DNA of 54,938 nucleotides from a virus: IMG/VR virus record IMGVR_UViG_3300042691_027774, positions 1-54,938 of that record; one strand, written 5' to 3'. Of this stretch, positions 590 through 50,798 are shown one piece after another (the first letter of the stretch is position 1; the number at the start of each line of letters is the position of its first letter). The notes under the pieces are model-generated. The model saw only the letters and a list, made by a program, of their open reading frames with translations. It was not told where the DNA came from and made no database searches. The position numbers and the translations under genes are program-made.

Positions 590-958
590 ATGGCCACACA
601 CGGAAACACGTTCGACCCTACGGCAATGCCAAAAATCAAACTGGACCCGTCGTCGCTGAAGACGATCCGTCCACTTGTGGCGAACATGGCGAAGAAGGGA
701 GCGCGGCCCAGCGACATCGCGGAGCTTCTTGGTAACGCATATCCCGTCCCGGTCATCCAGGCACTCTTTGCCGAGGAGTTCATTTCGGGGGCGGCAGAGT
801 GTCGGATGATGGTAGAGCAGAAGATGCTCGATGTCATCATGGATTGCGGTGATCCAAAGCTGATCCAATTCTACCTTTCCCGCCTTGGCGGCAAGAAGTG
901 GGCGGAAGGTGGCGAGGCCCAGGCCGGAGCGGAACCAAAGCGGTTGGCGATCAAATGA
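590..958 (+). CDS. terS: Terminase small subunit (putative)
   Basis: The 122-residue protein has the size and layout of a phage DNA-packaging small subunit. A helix-rich N-terminal part (residues about 20-60) includes a possible DNA-binding helix-turn-helix around PSDIAELLG. It is followed by a segment ending in a LIQFYLSRLGGKKW-type motif, similar to the conserved 'single amino-acid change then Trp' region of many small terminases. The protein would recognise the packaging site and load the large subunit. Its stop codon overlaps the terL start as ATGA at 955-958, so the two are translationally coupled. The assignment rests on motif and position next to terL. Confidence 0.75.
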   Translation: MATHGNTFDPTAMPKIKLDPSSLKTIRPLVANMAKKGARPSDIAELLGNAYPVPVIQALFAEEFISGAAECRMMVEQKMLDVIMDCGDPKLIQFYLSRLGGKKWAEGGEAQAGAEPKRLAIK

Positions 959-3333
959 CGGAATCGACAAACCCGAAGGAATTGTTGGCTTCCATCCTTG
1001 CGGACCTGAAAGACGGGAACGGTGATGGCGGCCAGGCCCAGGCGGTTCGCGGGAACCCCTTGCCTCCCTCGGCACCAAAGGCCATTCCGCCAGAAGGATT
1101 CCCAAAGAGTGCAAACGGCAAAAGGCCGGCACGTCGGCGCCCCGGCAGACCCCGCAAAGAGCGCACCCCTGAGCAGGCCGCCAAGGAAGAGGCCTCCGCT
1201 CTTCTCAACTCGCGGGACGATGACACGTCAGCGGAAGATGGCATCTTCACAGACGGGCTCCCCCTGGATCAGATGAAGGCGTTTATCGCCGACAGTATCA
1301 AAGGTCGGGCGAATGAGCGAATGGGCGACGTTGGCTCGCGGATCTCTCGGCTTCAGAAGTCGGCCAATGGGCAGATCGCGGCGTACCTGGAAGAGCAGGA
1401 GCGCGTTGCCAAAGTGGCTGCTGCGGCAGATCGGGCGGCTCAGAAGGCGGCGATGGCGGCACTCATCAAAGAGTTTGAGGCAGAAGGACACAGCCAAGAG
1501 GCGGTCGAGCGGGTCAAGCGAGCGGCTGAGATGGTGTTCTCGGACGATCCTGATTCTCACACGGCGGACGGCACTCCGCGTGAAGTCATGGAGATCACGG
1601 GGAACCAGCCGGAACAGACGGCTTTCTTGCGAGACATGCAACCGGGGAGTGTTCTGGCCCAAGGGGGTTGGGGGTGCGTTGCGGGGTGTACCCGTATCGA
1701 CCATGGTTTTGACAAGAGAACGCTGATAGCCGATCTGTTCCGTGCCGGCAAGTGGTTCAACGTGGTAACTGCGGATGGACTGAAGTGGTGCCCGCCGCCC
1801 GTTAAACTGCCAGAGGCAGAACTGTTCCACGTTTATTTCGAGGACGACGCGCGGATCACTGTCCACCCAGACCACAAGTTTTTTACGTCTGATGGGAAGT
1901 GGCAGCCCTTGCATGACTTGGGTATAGACTTTGAAGTGTTGTCGCCGTCCCCCACGTTGGCTTTTCGCCAGGCGGGATTTCATTCCCCAGGGGAGTGGGA
2001 CGATCCGAGAGTGGCTGGATCTGGGGAGACATTCAAGAAAATCATTTACATCAAAAGCGCAGGGGTTCAGGAATACTACGATCTGAACGTACCGGACGTT
2101 GGGCACTATTTGGCAGAGGGCGTGTGGAACCACAACAGCGGCAAGTCGTGGAGCGGTGCCCGCAAGTTCGCGTTCCTTCACGCTCTCAACAATGAGTCAG
2201 AGGGCATGATTATCGCCCCCACTCGTGAAGACCTTGTGCGCGACATTGTCCCCAAGTTCATTGATTTTTGCAACGAACTCAATTGGACAGTCACGCGCAA
2301 AGAGCAACCGCTTCGGCTCACGGTCCTGGGGCGGCAGATTCACTGCATGTCAGCGGAGGAACCGCGCCGAATCAGTGCGTTCACGGTGGGGCATGGTTGG
2401 GTGGATGAAGCCGCTCGTGTCAAGGAATCCAAGGTTGATCCTCTTGACGATGCCCCCACGCAGATTCGCGGGCGCATGCGATGCAAGAAAGCGAAGGTAC
2501 TGCAACTGATCGTGACGACCACGCCAGAAGGGATTCACACTTGGGTGCAGCGGGATTGGATCAACGAGGAAACGAGGAAGCCGAACCATCGTTTCTACCT
2601 ACTGAAAACGGTATTGAATACTGCCCTCCATGAGAACTACCTTGCCGACCTGAACGCGACAATCCCGGCGGACTTGGTTCAGCAGTACCTCGACGGCCAC
2701 GCGGTTGACTATGTCGCAGATCGTGCTCACGCCACGTTTGGCAACGAGAACCTTTCTGCGATGGAGTTTGACCCACGGCTGCCGCTGCATATCGGGCTGG
2801 ACTTCAACGTGGACCCCATGTCCTGGGTGGCCGCGCAGGAGTTTGGCGGCGGGATTCACTGCATTGGCGAAGTGTTCATCGAGGGCGGAACGACGATTGA
2901 CCGTGCCCTCCAAGTGGCTGCCGAGATGGGATGGGGGAAAAGCACACGAGTCGTCTTTCACCCCGACCGTTCGTCCAAGGCCCGTTCGACAACTGGTGAT
3001 GGCGAGTTTGTCAGCTTGATGAAGGCGGCGAAGGCCCTGGGGTGGAAGTGTGAGGGCACCGCGTTTGGCCACAATCCGCCAGTCATCGCACGTATCGGCA
3101 AACTCTCGCGTGCCATCCTTTCAGCCGACGGGCAACGTCGATTCTTTGTGAATCCCAAGACGTGCCCGCGCTTGACCTCTGAGTTGCGTACCGTTGGCCG
3201 GCGCCAGGATGGGGACTACGATCCAGGCAAAGCGAAAGACAAAGGGCACATATTGTCTGCCATTGGGTACGCCATTTTCGAGATGTTGCCAGACAAAGAC
3301 CTCAAAGCCGGACTCGTTCCGTTCAAGTATTGA
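955..3333 (+). CDS. terL: Terminase large subunit interrupted by a mini-intein
   Basis: This is the packaging motor ATPase and nuclease. The start at 955 is chosen because it forms an ATGA overlap with terS. The 792-residue precursor has a charged N-terminal tail, then an ATPase domain whose Walker A loop GGWG/SGKS is interrupted by 154 foreign residues (241-394). Walker B is GWVDEA with D484-E485, followed by a TTTP coupling motif near residue 520. The C-terminal RNase H-like nuclease shows acidic residues in GLDFNVDP (D616) and HPDRSS (D671). Removing the insert restores a perfect GxxxxGKS loop and a 638-residue terminase. The extreme C-terminus (KAGLVPFKY) is duplicated downstream at 3613-3654. 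Confidence 0.93.
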   Translation: MTESTNPKELLASILADLKDGNGDGGQAQAVRGNPLPPSAPKAIPPEGFPKSANGKRPARRRPGRPRKERTPEQAAKEEASALLNSRDDDTSAEDGIFTDGLPLDQMKAFIADSIKGRANERMGDVGSRISRLQKSANGQIAAYLEEQERVAKVAAAADRAAQKAAMAALIKEFEAEGHSQEAVERVKRAAEMVFSDDPDSHTADGTPREVMEITGNQPEQTAFLRDMQPGSVLAQGGWGCVAGCTRIDHGFDKRTLIADLFRAGKWFNVVTADGLKWCPPPVKLPEAELFHVYFEDDARITVHPDHKFFTSDGKWQPLHDLGIDFEVLSPSPTLAFRQAGFHSPGEWDDPRVAGSGETFKKIIYIKSAGVQEYYDLNVPDVGHYLAEGVWNHNSGKSWSGARKFAFLHALNNESEGMIIAPTREDLVRDIVPKFIDFCNELNWTVTRKEQPLRLTVLGRQIHCMSAEEPRRISAFTVGHGWVDEAARVKESKVDPLDDAPTQIRGRMRCKKAKVLQLIVTTTPEGIHTWVQRDWINEETRKPNHRFYLLKTVLNTALHENYLADLNATIPADLVQQYLDGHAVDYVADRAHATFGNENLSAMEFDPRLPLHIGLDFNVDPMSWVAAQEFGGGIHCIGEVFIEGGTTIDRALQVAAEMGWGKSTRVVFHPDRSSKARSTTGDGEFVSLMKAAKALGWKCEGTAFGHNPPVIARIGKLSRAILSADGQRRFFVNPKTCPRLTSELRTVGRRQDGDYDPGKAKDKGHILSAIGYAIFEMLPDKDLKAGLVPFKY
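1675..2136 (+). other. Mini-intein inside the TerL Walker A loop
   Basis: The 154-residue in-frame insert begins with Cys1 (CVAGCTRIDHG, block A) and ends in His-Asn followed by extein Ser+1 (VWNHN then SGKS). A block B TxxH motif is present as ARITVHPDHKFFTSDG, and block F as YYDLNVPDVGHYLAEG. There is no room for a homing endonuclease domain, so it is a minimal splicing element. All nucleophiles needed for class 1 splicing (Cys1, block B His, penultimate His, terminal Asn, Ser+1) are visible. The insertion splits the nucleotide-binding loop, so packaging should depend on splicing. Confidence 0.93.
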
Positions 3334-3347
3334 AAGAAGGAGACAGT

Positions 3348-3602
3348 ATGACTTACGAAGAACAAGAACAAATGGGGATCAATCTTATCGACGTTATGAC
3401 GACGGGGAAGTCAGCGGAGCCGATTCGCCGGGTACTTTTGACTGGATCCCCAGCAGGAGACTACTATAAGGAGATAGAGATGGGATGGCCCATTCCACAG
3501 TCAATGATCACCCGGCATCCGGTCACAGAGATAGAGGAAGTGTACGAGATCCCCGATGGCGTAGGCATCTATCAGGGAGCATATGACGGAAGCAACTTTT
3601 GA
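3348..3602 (+). CDS. Small protein of unknown function between terL and its duplicated tail
   Basis: The 84-residue acidic protein starts with MTYEEQEQMG. ATG 3348 is preferred over the upstream in-frame codon because AGAAGGAGA lies at ideal spacing. I see no recognisable domain. The gene is bracketed on the left by the real terL end and on the right by a second, diverged copy of the last terL codons, suggesting it arrived by recombination with a related phage. Confidence 0.6.
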   Translation: MTYEEQEQMGINLIDVMTTGKSAEPIRRVLLTGSPAGDYYKEIEMGWPIPQSMITRHPVTEIEEVYEIPDGVGIYQGAYDGSNF

Positions 3603-44299: not shown

Positions 44300-45391
44300 C
44301 TATTCCTCCTTTTTGCCACAGGGAACCAATTTGGGTTCACCTTCAGGGGTTTCGGTCAGGCGGGCAATGGCTGCCGCAGCTTTCACTTTGCCGTAGGTTT
44401 TGGCCAGGGCATCGCGTGCTTTCGCTGGGCTGAGAGGGACAGATGGGTTTTCGATACCAAGGGCTTTCAGCGAGTCCAGAGTGTCCGCATCAGAGAGCCG
44501 CCATTTAGGATAGGGTTTCGTCGTGCCCACTTCATATCCTGGGACTCCACCGAGTGAAAGCGCCAACTTTTCAACATTGGCAATCATCTTTTTGACGTAG
44601 GGAGCACACTTGAGAATCTGGGCCATTTGCTCAGGGGACAAGATTTTGACAACGTCTGTGGGATCTGGCAAATCGACGACAGTGATTCCGCGCTCTGCCC
44701 CAGCGGTAACATATTGCATCATTCCCAGGTGAGCTTTGCAAGTGACACGTCCAGCACAGAATCCGCACTTGTCAGAGGGAGTCACTTCCCATTCGCACGC
44801 CTTGTGATTGCGATTGATGGCCGCGTACACCCTCTTTTCAAACTCGGCCAATTCTTCCAACGTTACACACCAGGAACGGTGGGTGCGATGGGAACCGTCT
44901 GGATCAACGTCTGCATCGTCTTCGCCTTGGACAATGTGCAGGTGGTAGTTCGCGGGCCGCATCTTTTTGGCAACGCACCAGGACACCGCGCCAAAGAGAA
45001 GTTGTTCGTTGTCGTAAGCGTGAACAAGCATTTCCCCCGTTTTCAAATCGGCAACGTGGAGAGTGTCTGTCAACTCGTCGTACCAAACGGCATCGAGTGT
45101 CGTCCCGGCAACGCCGTTCATCAGTTCGCATTCTTCTTCGATCTGCCAGTGGGGGCCGACGAGTTTTGCCCAAGCGGTTGCATGGGGAGCGCATTCAGCA
45201 GGCATTTCTCCGGTGAAAGTGCCGAGGGCGAACTGGTGGCAGATGCGGTGAAACTCTGTGCCGCGCTTCATCTCCGCAGACTCGACCTTCATCGACTCTT
45301 TGGTGGTGGCGTACCAGCCATCACAGTTCAGCCACATTGACGCAGTCGAGCCGCCAAAGCGCCAATGTTTTGTGGGGGCGTCAAGGTTCAT
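44300..45391 (-). CDS. PD-(D/E)XK exonuclease, DUF2800-like
   Basis: The protein is 363 residues from ATG 45391, set by the ATGA overlap. The RecB-like nuclease core is GTEFHRICHQFALG, then TLDAVWYDELTD (metal-binding Asp), LHVADLKTG (D-x-K) and YDNEQLLFGAVSW. A Cys cluster (DKCGFCAGRVTC) near residue 210 could hold an iron-sulphur cluster or zinc, as in other RecB-like nucleases of phages. With the single-strand-binding-like protein it would make a recombination pair. It is coupled to the helicase fragment upstream. Confidence 0.75.
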   Translation of the reverse strand: MNLDAPTKHWRFGGSTASMWLNCDGWYATTKESMKVESAEMKRGTEFHRICHQFALGTFTGEMPAECAPHATAWAKLVGPHWQIEEECELMNGVAGTTLDAVWYDELTDTLHVADLKTGEMLVHAYDNEQLLFGAVSWCVAKKMRPANYHLHIVQGEDDADVDPDGSHRTHRSWCVTLEELAEFEKRVYAAINRNHKACEWEVTPSDKCGFCAGRVTCKAHLGMMQYVTAGAERGITVVDLPDPTDVVKILSPEQMAQILKCAPYVKKMIANVEKLALSLGGVPGYEVGTTKPYPKWRLSDADTLDSLKALGIENPSVPLSPAKARDALAKTYGKVKAAAAIARLTETPEGEPKLVPCGKKEE

Positions 45392-46599
45392 TTGGCAAAC
45401 CCCAGGCGAGCTGCGACCAATCCGCGCTGGGCATCGGTCAACTTCGCGGGCAGAATCTTTTCGGTGACCCCAGCGGCAGCGGAGCATTCGCGGTACACGC
45501 TGGCACGACGGGCTTCGTAGTTGGCTTTGTCGCCAACGGGATCGCCAAGGAACTTGGGGAGGAAAGCGGAGAACTCGGCGAAGGTGAGGGGGGTGACTTC
45601 ACCGCCTGCGACCTTGGGCTCTTCTTTGGCCGCGACACTCCCATTGGCGCACGGTGACGCGGCAGCTTCCGCCGGGGGCAGTGGGGCCAACGAAGGGCGG
45701 GTTTTGAGGTATTGCCGCAGTTTATCAGGATCGGAAAGCGCCTCAAGTGCGGCTGCATTGACTGGGTCTTTGTTTAACGGGTTCAGCATTGTGGCGATGG
45801 CCTGCTCTTGCGGCTGGACTTTCTCAGCGGGCTTTTCCCCCGCTGAGGAAACGGCGGCGATTGCACCCACACCAATCGTCGTGCAGGGGGCTTGCAGGTC
45901 GATCTTCACTGTGGTTTTTGCAGTTTCCTCTGCTGCACTAGCAGTAGCAATCCGAGAGAGCAAAGCGGAAACGCGATTGAGTGCGCCGCCAAGTTCGCTC
46001 ACGATCTTGCCGAGTTGGAAAAGTTCTTCTTGATTCTGAGACACGGTGGGCTCCTTTTGTGCAACGTTGGCACGTGGTGGGTTAGAAAGGTTTGCAACGG
46101 CTTCTTTGTTCGCTTCTCCGAACACTATGCCAGGGGTTTCTGACGTGTCAAGGGACAAAGTTGGGGGGCCTACTAAGTCCCGCACAACCTCGCCCCAGCC
46201 GGGTTGCCCATCGCTGGCCATTTGCTTCAGGCGGTGGGCTTCGTCGAGGATAACAACGTCCCATTTTATCTGCATCAATCGGTCTTTCATAACAACCAGG
46301 TCTGTCCATGGAACCAAGGTGTGTCCTGGCGTTTTCGTTACGGAATCGTTGCGTCTGACTATTGTAAAACGTCGCCATTCTGTCCATTTTATCGCCTCTT
46401 TTTGCCAACAGGGTAAAACGGACAAAGGGGCGACAACGAGAACATTTGATAAAGGTCCGATTCCCGCCAGGTCTAACGCAAGAAGCGTTTGCACCGTTTT
46501 TCCAAGGCCGGGCGCGTCTGCCAGGATTCCACGGTCCCAAGCAGCAAGGAATCGAGCGCCTTCCTCTTGGTAGGGTTTGACGGGGCGGAGAAGTGTCAT
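45388..46599 (-). CDS. SNF2/SF2 helicase N-terminal half, fused to an unrelated tail
   Basis: The 403-residue protein starts LRPVKPYQEEGARFL, with motif I DAPGLGKT at residues 28-35 and motif II DEAH at 119-122. It also shows the PLSVLPCW and VVMKDRL segments typical of SNF2-type ATPase cores. Soon after DEAHRLK the helicase sequence stops; motifs III-VI are missing. The remaining 250 residues are low-complexity (Ala, Pro, Thr, Lys) and end in a small helical domain (LTFAEFSAFLPKFLG, TDAQRGLVAARLGF). The missing motifs occur in a separate gene 3.3 kb upstream (49869-50798). Confidence 0.8.
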   Translation of the reverse strand: MTLLRPVKPYQEEGARFLAAWDRGILADAPGLGKTVQTLLALDLAGIGPLSNVLVVAPLSVLPCWQKEAIKWTEWRRFTIVRRNDSVTKTPGHTLVPWTDLVVMKDRLMQIKWDVVILDEAHRLKQMASDGQPGWGEVVRDLVGPPTLSLDTSETPGIVFGEANKEAVANLSNPPRANVAQKEPTVSQNQEELFQLGKIVSELGGALNRVSALLSRIATASAAEETAKTTVKIDLQAPCTTIGVGAIAAVSSAGEKPAEKVQPQEQAIATMLNPLNKDPVNAAALEALSDPDKLRQYLKTRPSLAPLPPAEAAASPCANGSVAAKEEPKVAGGEVTPLTFAEFSAFLPKFLGDPVGDKANYEARRASVYRECSAAAGVTEKILPAKLTDAQRGLVAARLGFAK

Positions 46600-49868: not shown

Positions 49869-50798
49869 TCATTCTCCTATCATTTTGATGGTGTTAGATG
49901 TTTTCCGGCGAAGCGTTTTTCTCAAGCGGTCCTCTAAAGTTGACCCAGCATCGAGTTCAAACATGAGAACCGGGGACGTACTGACTGATCCTTTGCGAAC
50001 GATTCGCCCAGTGCCCTGAATGATCTCTGAAGGGTTCCAAACGAGTTCGACAAATGCGCCGGCCACCGCTTTGTGCTGGAGTCCATCAAGCCCTGTGCCG
50101 CAGGCCCCAATGGATGCAACGATGACGGGTTTCTTGTCATTTTTCAACCATTCATCAATGATTTTCTGGCGTTTTCCTGCACTGTGCCCACCGTGGACAA
50201 ACGGCGCGTCAATTTCTTTGGCTAGCGTTTCAATGACGGTACGGTGTTTGGCTAAAAGAACAAGAGGCATTCCGCCGTGGTCAGAAAGGAAGTCACGATA
50301 CCAAGAAGCAACGGCTGGAACCTTGGCCAGTCCGCAATCTCGGCAGTACGCTGACAGACGATCTTGCCCTGGGATTTGGTCAGAGCGGGCGGGATCATAT
50401 CCGCTCAGCCCAAGGTCCGCAGCGGCTTGCAAAAGTGCCGCTCTGGCACCGTCCTGGTCAGCATCGGGACCAAGCCCGGTTTCGTCTGGAATCAAAGGTG
50501 CCGCCACGTTTGCCAGTGAAACAATTTCAAGAATGGATTCAGGGAGTTCACCGGGAACATCCTTGCCCGTTCGCCTTAGCCAATGGCCCCCGGTTTCGAG
50601 AGATTTCCGCAACTCTCCCAGATTGTTTGCCCCCAATAAATCCGGCGTCATCTTTGTTGGGTTCCAGCGTTTGCAGTGGCGCTCACGGTAGGCCGCAAGA
50701 TCGCGTGTGGCAGGGTGGCCCACCGTGTCTAGCAGGGGTTCCAACTCTATCGGGCGGCCATTGGGGGCCGGGGTGCCTGTGAGTAGCCAGACTCTCAC
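49869..50798 (-). CDS. SNF2/SF2 helicase C-terminal half
   Basis: The 309-residue protein starts at GTG 50798, inside a GTGA overlap. It begins exactly at motif III (MRVWLLTGTPAPNGRP) and contains LVLLAKHRTVIETLAKE (motif IV), VIVASIGACGTGLDGLQ (motif V) and QGTGRIVRKGSV (motif VI). No motif I or II is present. Together with the 45388-46599 product it would complete a SNF2-type ATPase/helicase core, although it is transcribed first while encoding the second half. Confidence 0.82.
   Translation of the reverse strand: MRVWLLTGTPAPNGRPIELEPLLDTVGHPATRDLAAYRERHCKRWNPTKMTPDLLGANNLGELRKSLETGGHWLRRTGKDVPGELPESILEIVSLANVAAPLIPDETGLGPDADQDGARAALLQAAADLGLSGYDPARSDQIPGQDRLSAYCRDCGLAKVPAVASWYRDFLSDHGGMPLVLLAKHRTVIETLAKEIDAPFVHGGHSAGKRQKIIDEWLKNDKKPVIVASIGACGTGLDGLQHKAVAGAFVELVWNPSEIIQGTGRIVRKGSVSTSPVLMFELDAGSTLEDRLRKTLRRKTSNTIKMIGE

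Follow-up and report, generated by a model that had tools for sequence, protein, structure and literature searches.

The window analysed here is the whole of an IMG/VR virus contig, 54,938 bases long. Near its start, a 792-codon open frame runs without interruption from an ATG at position 955 to a stop at 3331-3333. The encoded protein of 792 aa matches Pfam Terminase_6N (E 8e-7), is assigned to the PHROG terminase large subunit (TerL) and is about 29% identical to annotated terminases from several phage groups. Genes for a portal, a scaffold and a major head protein lie downstream, as expected for a packaging and head module. Residues 241-394 of the precursor (462 bases, 154 aa) form an insert that starts with CVAGCTRID, ends with GVWNHN and falls between the GGWG and SGKS halves of the Walker A motif; TerL minus this insert would have 638 residues. 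The original prediction had placed an intein at exactly these coordinates. A related terminase, hereafter the sibling, carries a homologous insert, and further inteins at the same junction ("same-site inteins") were collected from IMG/VR as described below. The features of the locus are as follows.

955..1674, + strand: N-extein of TerL, 240 aa from the ATG at 955; its last residues, GGWG, are the first half of Walker A
1663-1674, + strand: GGWG, directly 5' of the intein
1675..2136, + strand: intein, 154 aa, class 1 architecture, without endonuclease
1675..1677, + strand: Cys1 (TGC), predicted step-1 nucleophile; invariant in 27 same-site inteins
1864..1875, + strand: block B HPDH, with His64 at B:7 (normally Thr) and His67 at B:10; the sibling is identical here
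1915..2028, + strand: variable linker, residues 81-118, the usual endonuclease place in inteins; 22% identity to the sibling
2080..2082, + strand: block F Asp136 (F:4), placed by alignment with other inteins
2101..2106, + strand: block F Gly143-His144, F:13 being Gly, then His; His-His in the sibling
2131..2136, + strand: block G His153-Asn154, penultimate His and predicted cyclising Asn; invariant in 27 same-site inteins
2137-2139, + strand: Ser+1, first residue after the intein
2137-2148, + strand: SGKS, directly 3' of the intein
2137..3333, + strand: C-extein of TerL, 398 aa, starting Ser+1-Gly-Lys-Ser, stop included; Terminase_6N

The N-extein, like that of the sibling, starts about 200 residues earlier than related terminases, so that Walker A lies near residue 237 rather than near residue 30; this extra part shows low identity and no family match. 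Directly upstream, a 122-residue open frame (590-958, + strand) overlaps the terminase start; it had no clear family match in Pfam or PHROGs, and its position makes it a candidate for the small terminase subunit. The window itself begins within an 8-base tandem array (positions 1-70, TAGCCAGA). In contig L003, whose terminase end is the same, positions 2997-3396, upstream of the terminase genes, hold about 25.6 copies of this unit beside 8.8 copies of an 18-base repeat. The end of our contig is therefore probably an assembly break at this array.

Elsewhere in the window, a SNF2-type helicase is seemingly broken in two. The frame at 45388-46599 (- strand) holds motifs I and II and the SNF2 N-terminal part; that at 49869-50798 (- strand) holds the C-terminal helicase domain from the TGTP motif onwards, and about 3.3 kb lies between the halves, whose order is reversed relative to transcription. 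Residues 298-403, at the end of the first frame, match a gene that stands by itself in the sibling contig (G001, 48145-48462), and this match suggests a rearrangement and fusion. A split intein was considered and rejected, neither half having intein-like ends.

We then asked how well the terminase insert resembles known inteins. On its own it matched Pfam Intein_splicing with E 4.3e-7 and 30.3 bits, under the curated cut-off of 35.8 bits, which the sibling insert passed with 44.8 bits. A profile built from these two sequences matched Mtu RecA mini-inteins in two stretches, one from residue 1 to the end of block B and one across the final 21 residues, and a profile of the same-site inteins matched 54 solved chains, nearly all of them inteins. 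Structure prediction from the two-sequence alignment was poor (pLDDT 34.8) and was set aside for a model based on 27 same-site inteins. The resulting AlphaFold model reached pLDDT 89.0 and pTM 0.81, with low confidence in the linker only (lowest at residues 107-115). When it was submitted to Foldseek, the best solved matches were all inteins, namely the Ssp DnaB mini-intein 6frh (E 8e-10), Npu DnaB 4o1r, Mtu RecA and Npu DnaE, and the viral matches included many terminases. Cys1, Asp at F:4, the penultimate His with the terminal Asn, and Ser at +1 are all present, as found in class 1 inteins; with Cys1 in place and Asp rather than Cys at F:4, assignment to class 3 was rejected. The linker counts only about 38 residues, and Pfam scans detected no homing endonuclease domain in it or in the sibling linker, in agreement with what had been predicted; the other window open frames that were scanned yielded no endonuclease either. 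Searched with the intein, annotated phage proteins gave no match, and no relative was confirmed across 84,980 prokaryote genomes. Two apparent carriers, H1 and H39, had alignments extending into the intein end yet contain no intein: AUS531phi and BUCT006 have an uninterrupted GFGSGKT.

The exact junctions were tested blind with a profile of 52 uninterrupted related terminases, against which 1,400 excisions were scored (starts 225-259, ends 375-414). Removal at 240|394 scored best, with 191.4 bits against 188.1 for the runner-up and 175.1 for the unspliced protein; in the sibling, the exact excision was likewise best (196.0 against 179.6 bits). An intein-less site had been proposed as something to look for in related phages, and it exists: the motif is uninterrupted as GGWGSGKS in L025 and L026 and as GGWGSGKT in L054, so that relatives display the empty site directly, although none of them is a near-identical phage.

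The sibling terminase lies on a 48,627-base contig and is also present in two further contigs. Its C-extein is 72% identical to that of the window, and its intein, at the same site, has 196 aa, a linker about 42 residues longer and 56% identity over aligned positions. In a codon comparison of the two genes, amino acid identity was 63% in the N-terminal block and 75% in the C-terminal block of the intein. Synonymous sites were near saturation throughout this comparison, in which dN/dS was estimated at 0.19 for the C-terminal intein block and 0.15 for the C-extein. From these sequence comparisons, purifying selection acts on the splicing blocks and not on the linker. All together, we observe the anatomy, the family, the predicted fold, the exact junctions, the conservation and the empty sites in relatives of a class 1 mini-intein of natural origin, set in the Walker A motif (P-loop) of a tailed-phage terminase large subunit; the resemblance goes well past what chance would give, and we regard this identification as almost certain. 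The core of the original prediction, an intein in the terminase Walker A loop with Cys1, a terminal His-Asn and Ser+1, is thus borne out by sequence, family, fold, sibling, junctions and empty sites alike.

The active site is less standard than had been claimed. Block B had been read as TxxH; the segment is T62-V-H64-P-D-H67, and alignment with solved inteins places Thr B:7 on H64 and His B:10 on H67, which makes the motif HxxH, with Thr62 two positions before B:7. Counting seven residues on from Asp F:4, the spacing seen in Mtu RecA, leads to Gly143 at position F:13; His144 adjoins it. Hence the claim that all splicing residues are present holds for the nucleophiles, His B:10, Asp F:4 and the His-Asn end, while B:7 is His instead of Thr and F:13 is Gly instead of His. 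Thr at B:7 assists the first step in most inteins. Given these two substitutions, splicing could be slow or could partly give cleavage.

To place these residues in context, we scanned IMG/VR with a DNA pattern for G-[VILFM]-x-x-H-N|S-G-K-[S/T], which returned at least 119 stretches, of which 80 were fetched. Nearly all of these are inteins, in which a block F/G signature precedes the junction and a P-loop follows it; many sit in terminases, and about 10 further hosts match a narrow terminase profile. At least 35 distinct inteins of 128 to 455 aa could be cut out, window and sibling included. Six of the 35, among the matches listed, are shorter than 140 aa (L174, L185, L196, L178, L133 and L179, of 128-139 aa, within L131-L210), and natural mini-inteins as small as 134 aa have been described (PMC4031507). 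A size of 154 aa is thus ordinary, and the special practical interest attributed to it finds no support. Cys1 and the terminal His-Asn are invariant among 27 of these inteins, and same-site inteins of about 300 aa gave no Pfam endonuclease match at E 1e-3 among the 27 scanned.

In 32 aligned same-site inteins, His B:10 is present without exception (32/32). Position B:7 holds Thr in 24 of them, Ser in 4 and Ala in 2; the window and sibling inteins alone have His. In a wider set of 75 open frames, 66 of them alignable at B:7, the residue is Thr in 46, Ser in 11, Ala in 5, Asn in 2 and His in 2, so that His occurs in none of the 64 others alignable there, among the matches listed. As Ser, Ala and Asn also occupy this position, Thr at B:7 is not strictly class 1-defining. 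F:13 is His in 12 of the 32 and another residue in 20; absence of His there is common in viral inteins, and we dropped the idea that Gly at F:13 is a defect, since most same-site inteins also lack His there. A His one position past the usual F:13, in an x-His-Tyr block F, was seen in L162, L171, L174, L180 and L154 as well as in the window (2101-2106), and this group may mark a subfamily.

The HPDH block B, common to the window intein and its sibling, defines a subfamily of which two sequence types were found. It is a tentative idea, and on balance an unlikely one, that these two run the first step with a His pair instead of Thr-His, at a changed rate or in a pH- or metal-dependent way, and that terminase maturation is consequently tuned rather than immediate. 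We also consider it improbable that the intein is conditional, such that HPDH and the sibling-conserved Cys39 let splicing respond to redox state, metal or pH and packaging is timed by splicing. Both His B:7 and Cys39 are kept in the two inteins, whose identity is only 56%, and His at B:7 is otherwise missing from the 64 aligned inteins listed; stress-responsive splicing of a mycobacterial DnaB intein is reported (PMC6195587). However, Cys39 recurs in just two other same-site inteins among the matches listed, the disulfide and metal site remain putative, and the mycobacteriophage TerL inteins that were tested spliced readily in a reporter (PMC5050341). Very improbable, in our view, is a crippled element that mostly cleaves or fails to splice and leaves the terminase inactive or working as fragments: two assisting positions do differ from the textbook residues, but every nucleophile is kept, purifying selection acts on the splicing blocks, HPDH is unchanged in the sibling, 20 of the 32 listed inteins likewise have a residue other than His at F:13, and 7,330 bases of identical sequence recur in two other contigs with the frame intact. 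That the insert is a non-splicing domain retained in the terminase, as a reading frame open across it would allow, can practically be dismissed, as the insert splits Walker A, has a Cys start, an HN|S end and a predicted intein fold, and its removal restores the motif exactly.

We therefore return to the reading of a class 1 mini-intein that splices, from a precursor that is presumably inactive. The class 1 pathway via Cys1, Ser+1 and Asn154 is its likely route. Cys1 would attack the Gly240-Cys241 bond in an N-S acyl shift aided by His67 and Asp136; Ser+1 would next receive the N-extein by transesterification; and Asn154 would cyclise, aided by His153 and perhaps also by His144. A final acyl shift would link GGWG with SGKS; the resulting terminase of 638 residues would have its ATP-binding loop, GGWGSGKS, intact and contain the predicted junction peptide ...AQGGWGSGKSWSGAR. 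Because 154 residues split Walker A, an unspliced precursor is very unlikely to bind ATP or package DNA, and the original suggestion that packaging stays off until then is reasonable. Such a block is common to every Walker A intein, however, and does not in itself point to timing or regulation. Mini-inteins are usually read as once mobile inteins that lost their endonuclease (PMC7765530), and the window intein may have been derived in this way. Being without an endonuclease, it is probably transmitted together with its gene, and is probably kept as imprecise loss would destroy an essential ATPase.

The window intein is an addition to a known type of element at a very common, heavily used Walker A site: one more natural example without endonuclease, now with a corrected reading of its active site. 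His at B:7 is a mildly new feature of this intein and its sibling, and offers a simple mutational handle on the contribution of Thr B:7. The 35 distinct same-site inteins that one pattern scan yielded may be of greater use than the window intein itself, as they include many small inteins for splicing studies, some of 128-139 aa, and reveal which assisting positions can vary.

Several known systems invite comparison. The yeast VMA1 intein presumably occupies the same P-loop position as the window intein. Closest in setting are the TerL inteins of mycobacteriophages, which cluster in the ATPase domain, the Walker A P-loop being their commonest location, and have been shown to splice in a reporter; both activity and complex formation are thought to depend on their splicing (Kelley et al. 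2016, PMC5050341). The window intein shares with these and other tailed-phage TerL inteins its place in the ATPase domain P-loop. The commonest mycobacteriophage P-loop sites, however, lie between Lys and Thr of GKT (site a) and one residue away (site b), and active endonucleases are present in both inteins whose cutting was tested, BAKA TerL1-b and Bethlehem TerL1-c, site c being outside the P-loop (PMC5050341), whereas the window site, GGWG|SGKS, is three residues upstream of site a and its intein has no endonuclease. With 33 other distinct HN|SGK[S/T] inteins of IMG/VR it has in common the Walker A position, Cys1, the HN end, Ser at +1 and the Hint profile; the sibling aside, these are at most 38% identical to it, and their B:7 is Thr, Ser or Ala among the 32 aligned. 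The Ssp and Npu DnaB and Mtu RecA mini-inteins (6frh, 1mi8, 4o1r, 2imz) share the predicted Hint fold (TM-score 0.73-0.78 by query length) and the class 1 nucleophiles, but they are about 20% identical, have Thr at B:7, and some are engineered minimal forms. The gp41-1 intein (6qaz) and class 3 inteins, of viral or phage origin, have the fold that is predicted for the window intein, and they depart from TxxH too, with SxxH and DxxH, respectively (PMC12245125). Unlike the window intein, gp41-1 is used as a split intein, and class 3 inteins lack a residue-1 nucleophile and carry Cys at F:4, where the window intein has Cys1 and Asp.
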